DNA of 64,000 nucleotides, from contig CALHPK010000007.1 of NCBI GenBank assembly GCA_938036315.1, positions 52,876 through 116,875 of the forward strand, in the 5' to 3' direction. The notes under the pieces were generated by a model. The model saw only the letters and a list, made by a program, of their open reading frames with translations. It had not been told where the DNA came from and did not search any database. Below, piece by piece: positions 21,111-22,474 of this stretch. Source of the stretch: an uncultured bacterium (GTDB taxonomy: Bacteria; Calescibacteriota; Calescibacteriia; Calescibacteriales; Calescibacteriaceae). Made by a program: the position numbers and the translations under genes. Numbering within the stretch: the stretch's first letter is position 1; the number at the start of each line of letters is the position of its first letter.

Positions 21111-21131
21111 TTTTCAACAACTTGTTGAAAA
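21111..21131. repeat. Perfect inverted repeat upstream of dnaA
   Basis: Arms TTTTCAACAA and TTGTTGAAAA flank a single C. The left arm plus CTT (TTTTCAACAACTT) recurs at 22419-22431 inside the DnaA-box cluster downstream of dnaA. It may be an origin-associated protein site or a weak terminator of the hydrolase gene. Confidence 0.5.
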
Positions 21132-21257
21132 TTCAGAAAATTTTTCGGAAAATGTAAAAACACAAGAGAGAAACAATAAAAATTCACTCTACCTCTGAAA
21201 AATAGGGTAGAATTTAGTGATGATTTTTTTTAAACTAAAATCGGAGGTGAAAGCATC

Positions 21258-22325
21258 ATGTTGAATCACCTTTTCTCAATCGACAGGAGATATACCTTCG
21301 CAAATTTCATAGTAGGAGAAAATAATAAAGGAGCTAAATTAGCATCTATGGAGATAGCAAAGGGGATGTCCAGAACAAATTTACTTTATATATGGAGTCA
21401 AAGCGGACTTGGGAAAACTCACCTTCTGCATGCCATAGGAAATGAAATAATAGATTCTCAAATAAGCTCCAGAGTTATATACGTACCATCTAACGAATTT
21501 ATGAGAGAGTTCACAACCGCATCTTCCAACAATGTTGTGTCTGAATTCAGAAGAAAATATAGAGATATGTGTGATGTGCTTTTGCTTGATGATTTAAATC
21601 TCCTTGAGCCCGAGGGAAGATCAGCTACAAGAGAAGAAATTTTTGAAACCGTCAACTACTTACTTATAACAAAAAAAAGAATTGTTATAACTTCCGATAA
21701 ACCCCCGCACTCACTGAGAAATTTTGAAGGTAAACTTATCTCACGACTTCAGTGGGGTAGAGTCATAGAAATAAAACCACCTCCTTTTGAAGTTAGAGTC
21801 GCCATACTGAAGGCAAAATGCGCTGAAAGAGGATACAAAGTCCCAGATGAAGTCATCTACTACATAGCTGAAAAAATATCCGGAAATGTCAGATGGTTAG
21901 AGGGAGCACTAGAAACCATCGTAATGTTCTCAGAAATAGAAGATAGAACACCAGATTTAGATATAGCAGAAAGGGCTCTGTCGCAACTCAATATTCCACT
22001 GAAAAATGTTGATGCCAATAAAATTATAGAATATACCGCAAAATTTTTTAATCTTTCACCCAAGGAAATTCAAAGTCCAAGACGGAAGAAAAATATATCC
22101 ATGGCAAGACAGATAGCAATATATCTGTGCAGGGAAATGCTCAACCTCTCAACAACAGAACTCGGGAGAATATTTGGCAACAGAGATCACTCTACAATAA
22201 TCTATGCTATCGAAAGAATAAAGCAAGAGAAAGAGAGAAACTCTTCAGTACAGATGGTTCTGAATTCTGTAAGAGAAGAAATTCTCGGTGAAAGTTCTCG
22301 CCTTAACGGTAAATACAGATATTAA
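21258..22325 (+). CDS. dnaA: Chromosomal replication initiator DnaA lacking domains I-II
   Basis: DnaA binds origin boxes and melts DNA. Domain III starts at residue 11 (RRYTFANFIVGENNKGA). Walker A is SQSGLGKT (47-54; first Gly is Ser), Walker B is DVLLLDD (106-112), sensor I is VITSDKPP, the arginine-finger region is KLISRL (159-164). Domain IV has the box-reading signature GNRDHST (307-313). Length is 355 against about 450: the N-terminal DnaB-binding domain I and linker II are absent. The start is well supported by GGAGGTGA eight bases upstream of the ATG, so this is not a mis-start. DnaA boxes follow immediately after the stop. Confidence 0.95.
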   Translation: MLNHLFSIDRRYTFANFIVGENNKGAKLASMEIAKGMSRTNLLYIWSQSGLGKTHLLHAIGNEIIDSQISSRVIYVPSNEFMREFTTASSNNVVSEFRRKYRDMCDVLLLDDLNLLEPEGRSATREEIFETVNYLLITKKRIVITSDKPPHSLRNFEGKLISRLQWGRVIEIKPPPFEVRVAILKAKCAERGYKVPDEVIYYIAEKISGNVRWLEGALETIVMFSEIEDRTPDLDIAERALSQLNIPLKNVDANKIIEYTAKFFNLSPKEIQSPRRKKNISMARQIAIYLCREMLNLSTTELGRIFGNRDHSTIIYAIERIKQEKERNSSVQMVLNSVREEILGESSRLNGKYRY

Positions 22326-22330
22326 CCCCT

Positions 22331-22474
22331 TGTGGAAAACTTGTGGAAAACCTGTAGAAAACATATGGTGAAAATGTGGAAAAATTTGTTTAAAAACCCC
22401 CCGATTTTTCCACAGAAATTTTCAACAACTTTTCCCACATCACTTTTAACAGAAATTCCACAAATTTTTCCATA
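22331..22474. other. Probable chromosomal origin (oriC): DnaA-box cluster
   Basis: Four 9-mers match the DnaA-box consensus TTWTNCACA: TGTGGAAAA at 22331-22339, 22342-22350 and 22375-22383, and TTTTCCACA at 22406-22414. Near-matches are TGTAGAAAA (22353-22361), TTTCCCACA (22431-22439) and TTTTCCATA (22466-22474). The downstream stretch 22600-22720 is very AT-rich and could be the unwinding element. Position next to dnaA, the strand-composition change and the parS cluster support an origin. No experiment is implied. Confidence 0.82.

Follow-up and report, generated by a model that had tools for sequence, protein, structure and literature searches.

A DnaA with domains III and IV only, and a candidate DciA, in Candidatus Calescibacteriota

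Background

DnaA, the chromosomal initiator of bacteria, has four domains in the usual description. Domain I holds the helicase or the proteins that recruit it, domain II is a linker, domain III is an AAA+ domain, and domain IV binds the DNA.

What happens without domain I has been studied in E. coli. DnaA that lacks this domain still unwinds oriC, with DnaB not loaded (PMC5448010). Other routes to the helicase exist. Once the origin is open, PriC can bypass the contact between DnaA and DnaB in E. coli (PMC12122000), and the DciA protein of C. crescentus loads DnaB on a DNA bubble (PMC9825169). In the literature covered, which excludes most subscription papers, no report was found of a natural DnaA without domain I, nor any report on dnaA in Calescamantes/Calescibacterium.

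The dnaA gene and its product

The window is a stretch of 64,000 nucleotides from an uncultured bacterium. It carries one dnaA gene, with the following features.

21258 to 22325, forward strand: dnaA, encoding domains III (AAA+) and IV only; 355 residues, ATG start; supported by profile and solved-structure matches, with the short form kept in four relatives.
21396 to 21419, forward strand: Walker A codons (SQSGLGKT), with Ser replacing the first Gly; from the sequence and the DnaA alignment.

The original prediction held that this DnaA starts directly at the AAA+ domain, without domain I and linker II, and profile searches confirm it. The N-terminus of the product reads MLNHLFSIDRRYTFANF. Pfam Bac_DnaA matches residues 9-170 (E 8.8e-46) and Bac_DnaA_C, which represents domain IV, matches residues 254-321 (E 2.7e-27); in the Pfam profile search of the protein, DnaA_N gave no match. 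The DnaA equivalog TIGR00362 aligns residues 8-342 with model positions 104-437 only, that is with domains III and IV, at a score of 373.4 bits (cut-off 343.9). The solved DnaA structures of B. subtilis (8btg), T. maritima (2z4r/2z4s), and A. aeolicus (1l8q/2hcb) align from their own domain III start onward. Before the alignment column of E. coli residue 134 there are nine residues, compared with about 100-320 in complete aligned DnaAs.

In most other respects the protein resembles bacterial DnaA. Its identity with the better matches from other phyla is about 35-41%, and it has the same two domains, with Walker A Lys, Walker B, arginine finger, sensor 2, and the helix-turn-helix that reads the DnaA box. 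In the alignment, the equivalents of E. coli Lys178, Asp235, Asp236, Arg285, Arg334, Arg399, and His434 are kept. The short protein has thus retained the residues for ATP binding and hydrolysis, the arginine finger (Arg285), sensor 2, and the box readers of domain IV (Arg399 and His434). It differs in the absence of domain I and linker II, with only 8-9 residues before domain III, and at several single positions. Lys stands at the position of E. coli Arg281, and Ala at that of Arg245, where Ala is common elsewhere too. The position of Val211 is Thr in the window and Met in the relatives.

Another difference is the Walker A motif, WSQSGLGKT, with Ser at the position of E. coli Gly172. This Ser had been mentioned in the original prediction. 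It is real, and the four relatives carry Ser, Ser, Ser, and Ala at the same position. Its weight is small: since 4/55 other aligned DnaAs also have Ser there (and 1/55 Ala), it is not exceptional, and in the alignment the replacement is a minor one, with no strong sign of change.

Hda, a regulator, likewise has no domain I, but it also lacks domain IV. An identity as Hda was rejected for the short protein, which scores 96 bits against the Hda model (cut-off 194.8) and has domain IV. Judged from its sequence, the 355-residue protein is a DnaA by descent and by all other tested features, but it is no four-domain DnaA.

Conservation in Candidatus Calescibacteriota

The closest named relatives are Candidatus Calescibacterium nevadense, Bacterium HR19, and one MAG. 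They belong to Candidatus Calescibacteriota, an uncultured hot-spring phylum. Searches at the family and the phylum level yield one and the same set of five genomes from three genera, and "phylum-wide" here means these five drafts of one family, with an estimated completeness of about 82-86%.

Each of the five genomes has one DnaA, which is short in every case. The four relatives' proteins are 76-78% identical to that of the window, and none of their genes has a domain I frame upstream. A search of the five drafts for a second dnaA found none. Likewise, no DnaA_N domain was detectable anywhere in them (best 14 bits, over very short stretches), whereas control genomes gave matches. The short form of this otherwise familiar protein is a conserved trait of the clade.

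The start codon and the upstream region

The region before the gene contains three features.

21243 to 21250, forward strand: Shine-Dalgarno sequence GGAGGTGA, 7 nt before the ATG; an equivalent is present in all five genomes.
21188 to 21211, no strand assigned: inverted repeat TCTACC...GGGTAGA ahead of the gene, with a counterpart of similar form in each of the five genomes.
21111 to 21131, no strand assigned: two TTTTCAACA boxes in inverted arrangement ahead of dnaA, from a box search; position not conserved.

A DnaA can appear short if its start is mis-called or its assembly is faulty, with the true domain I lying in frame upstream. For the window this is refuted by the sequence itself. Read back from the ATG, the frame closes after 24 nt without passing another start codon, and the upstream gene lies only 159 nt away, too near for a domain I to fit between. 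The frames of the four relatives close after 6, 48, 51, and, in one genome (G003), 237 nt. This last open stretch is the sole point in favor of a mis-called start. Its only start codon is a TTG, placed eight codons ahead of the ATG. Because the near sister G001 closes at 51 nt, the stretch is not a conserved coding sequence. In none of the five genomes is there an upstream start codon for a domain I, and in all five a GGAGG-type site precedes the same ATG. A hidden upstream domain I is thus hardly conceivable. Judged by frame closure and the conserved ribosome-binding site, the annotated start is real, as had been argued earlier from the Shine-Dalgarno sequence.

The inverted repeat lies about 50-70 nt 5' of the dnaA start, with small changes among the five genomes. 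A terminator scan did not call it, and it is possibly an operator or a leader element. The inverted pair of boxes may be a second box cluster or an autoregulatory site.

Between 20307 and 23699 of the window, dnaA does not adjoin dnaN, recF, or gyrB. It is flanked by one gene with a weak likeness to alpha/beta hydrolases and one that resembles diacylglycerol kinase genes.

DnaA across bacteria

The survey covered 290 genomes, which represent about 226 families. Their completeness is 90% or more, the window's own genome excepted. In 282 of them DnaA matched at E 1e-40 or better. The strongest matches, as listed, start at TIGR00362 model positions 1-4. Of the weakest matches 34 were viewed, and of the middle ones 80. 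No other sole DnaA without domain I was seen among the 290 genomes, some 20-30 of which (mostly E <=1e-156) were not viewed individually. Within this survey, a sole DnaA without domain I is rare and was seen in Calescibacteriota only.

Several apparent short forms were rejected. In G219, G193, and G221 the contig start cuts inside domain I, and the matches in G257 and G062 are at contig edges or are fragments. A diverged N-terminal domain is present in G048 and G179. In G232 the N-terminus is long, with domain I far upstream. The short DnaAs of G133, G258, and G297 are second copies that accompany a long DnaA.

Two genomes of one family, G133 and G258, are single-contig chromosomes that open with a short, divergent DnaA-like gene (L094, G133:C1:1-1020; L095, G258:C1:1-1032). 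Its product has about 340 residues and no domain I, and a second, long DnaA is encoded elsewhere. In G297 the second copy (L109, G297:C35:167800-170800) apparently has a disordered N-terminus instead of domain I, next to a normal DnaA. One genome that is 99% complete, G026, gave no DnaA match at E 1e-40 nor in a protein search; its DnaA may be missing, cut, or very diverged.

The existence of genomes that pair a short DnaA-like copy with a long DnaA, together with a completeness of about 85%, leaves room for another explanation of the Calescibacteriota gene. It could be a paralogue, as in G133 and G258, with a second, full-length DnaA in the unassembled part. However, each of the five drafts has exactly one DnaA, always short and always beside a conserved oriC. 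With roughly 15% of each draft missing, it is very unlikely that a long DnaA escaped all five times. In G133 and G258, moreover, the short copies score under the TIGR00362 equivalog cut-off, whereas the window's protein scores above it. A missed full-length DnaA is accordingly highly improbable, and the short protein is better read as the initiator itself.

The origin of replication

Two arrays of DnaA boxes follow the gene.

22331 to 22383, reverse strand: left DnaA-box array of oriC, TTTTCCACA, TTTTCCACA, TTTTCTACA, TTTTCCACA; first three 11 bp apart; conserved.
22406 to 22474, forward strand: right DnaA-box array of oriC, TTTTCCACA, TTTTCAACA, TTTCCCACA, TTTTCCATA; opposite orientation, first steps 12-13 bp; conserved.

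The 200 bp directly downstream of dnaA hold eight boxes with at most one mismatch from TTTTCCACA; in 1000 shuffles 0.07 were expected and at most 2 were found. Both arrays are kept in 5/5 genomes, with TTTTCCACA or TTTTCAACA boxes at steps of 11-13 bp. An adjacent oriC with TTTTCCACA boxes is a further likeness to other bacterial DnaA systems, and by its boxes the region next to the initiator gene is a textbook oriC. It lies near the point, at about 18 kb of the window, where the GC skew changes sign from negative to positive.

The length of domain II has been suggested to be adjusted to box spacing, with domain III serving closely spaced boxes (PMC5448010). The tight arrays would suit a DnaA whose cooperation depends on domain III alone.

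The helicase and its candidate loader

As DnaA has no domain I, DnaB must be loaded without it. The genome encodes a DnaB with both domains and a normal PriA. DnaC/DnaI was not found in the five drafts by sequence; the best IstB-type match everywhere is DnaA itself, and the remaining ones are short, weak AAA+ stretches. The original prediction that DnaB is loaded in another way or by another protein is supported as an inference, and a likely substitute, DciA, can now be added.

A DciA-like protein is present in all five genomes as a weak PF05258 match (E 2e-5 to 0.08). The window genome's copy is located around G000:C2:141007-141150, and the relatives' orthologues are 42-45% identical to it. 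An AlphaFold2 model of the protein has a mean pLDDT of 79. Its best match among solved folds is V. cholerae DciA (8a3v; Foldseek E 8.5e-4, prob 1.00), and with D. radiodurans DciA (7ykm) it superimposes at Z 8.7 over 77 residues, 2.5 A. A comparison with the PDB by sequence gave no meaningful match; fold comparison alone succeeded. The model thus predicts a KH-type fold as in solved DciA.

Like known DciA (PF05258; 8a3v, 7ykm), the candidate would combine this fold with a length of about 110-134 residues, in genomes without DnaC/DnaI. It differs in a very diverged sequence, under the curated Pfam cut-off in 4/5 genomes (25.8 bits in the one orthologue that passes, 14 bits in the window genome's copy). 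Its gene does not adjoin dnaA, recF, or gyrB in the stretches read. Overall, these genomes appear to encode DciA.

Among the next fold matches of the model are DnaA domain I structures of M. genitalium and B. subtilis (2jmp and 4tps). The KH fold is also found in ribosomal protein S3 and RbfA. Because the likeness between DciA and DnaA domain I is at the level of this widely shared fold, it does not show descent. Such a likeness has been published for M. tuberculosis (PMC5720831).

Loading of DnaB that is driven by DciA and free of domain I is therefore plausible. DciA is common in bacteria whose DnaA carries domain I. Since it also accompanies ordinary DnaA, its presence permits the loss of domain I but does not explain it.

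An alternative is that domain III itself recruits DnaB and DciA only opens or loads the ring. E. coli DnaA has a second, weak contact with DnaB near His136 (PMC12122000; PMC5448010), which would have been strengthened here, and the aligned residue is aromatic, Tyr in the window and Phe in the relatives. However, 47/55 full-length DnaAs also have Tyr or Phe at this position, so the surface is not special, and the domain III contact of E. coli alone does not load DnaB (PMC5448010). We consider this route unlikely.

Alternatively, the short DnaA and DnaB may be bridged by an unrecognised separate protein, either one with a diverged domain I or a novel adaptor that acts like DnaD or DiaA. In favor of this are the fast divergence of domain I and the incompleteness of the drafts; the search for a separate bridging protein covered DnaA_N. 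On the other hand, the five genomes gave no DnaA_N match where the controls did, and no suitable gene lies beside dnaA. Such a bridge is less likely still, and DciA remains the preferred candidate.

A proposed model for initiation without domain I

In the proposed mechanism, DnaA-ATP would assemble on the closely spaced head-to-tail boxes beside its own gene, using domain IV to hold the DNA and domain III to form the AAA+ filament, and would then open the origin. This opening would be ATP-dependent. DnaB would not be tethered by any DnaA domain I. Instead DciA, a free-standing KH-type protein with a fold also seen in domain I, would deliver DnaB to the opened DNA, possibly helped by the weak contact on domain III. 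We infer that the recruiter is DciA and that DnaA and DnaB can do without a stable tether between them.

The by-sequence basis of this explanation is the short architecture and its conservation, the lack of a detectable domain I or DnaC/DnaI, and the presence of DnaB, PriA, a DciA-like protein, and oriC. Taken as a whole, it is on balance probable: the short DnaA would be the genuine initiator of the chromosome in the sampled Candidatus Calescibacteriota, and the only one, with domains I and II lost before the five genomes diverged. In the same joint explanation, DnaA probably opens the origin through its AAA+ domain and domain IV only, while DciA, with or without the weak domain III contact, delivers DnaB. 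A stricter version is more tentative, though quite possible. It holds that origin opening by DnaA is fully separate from helicase delivery by DciA with its domain-I-like fold, a natural two-part version of the one-protein route of E. coli.

Significance

If every sampled member of a phylum relies on a single DnaA that has no domain I, this domain would be dispensable in nature. The short paralogues described above also lack domain I, but they accompany a full-length DnaA.

The short DnaA carries a testable consequence for helicase loading. It offers a minimal system for studying the way DnaB reaches an opened origin through DciA, a delivery step that matters for many DciA-using bacteria. Given the hot-spring origin of the relatives, the proteins may suit structural work.
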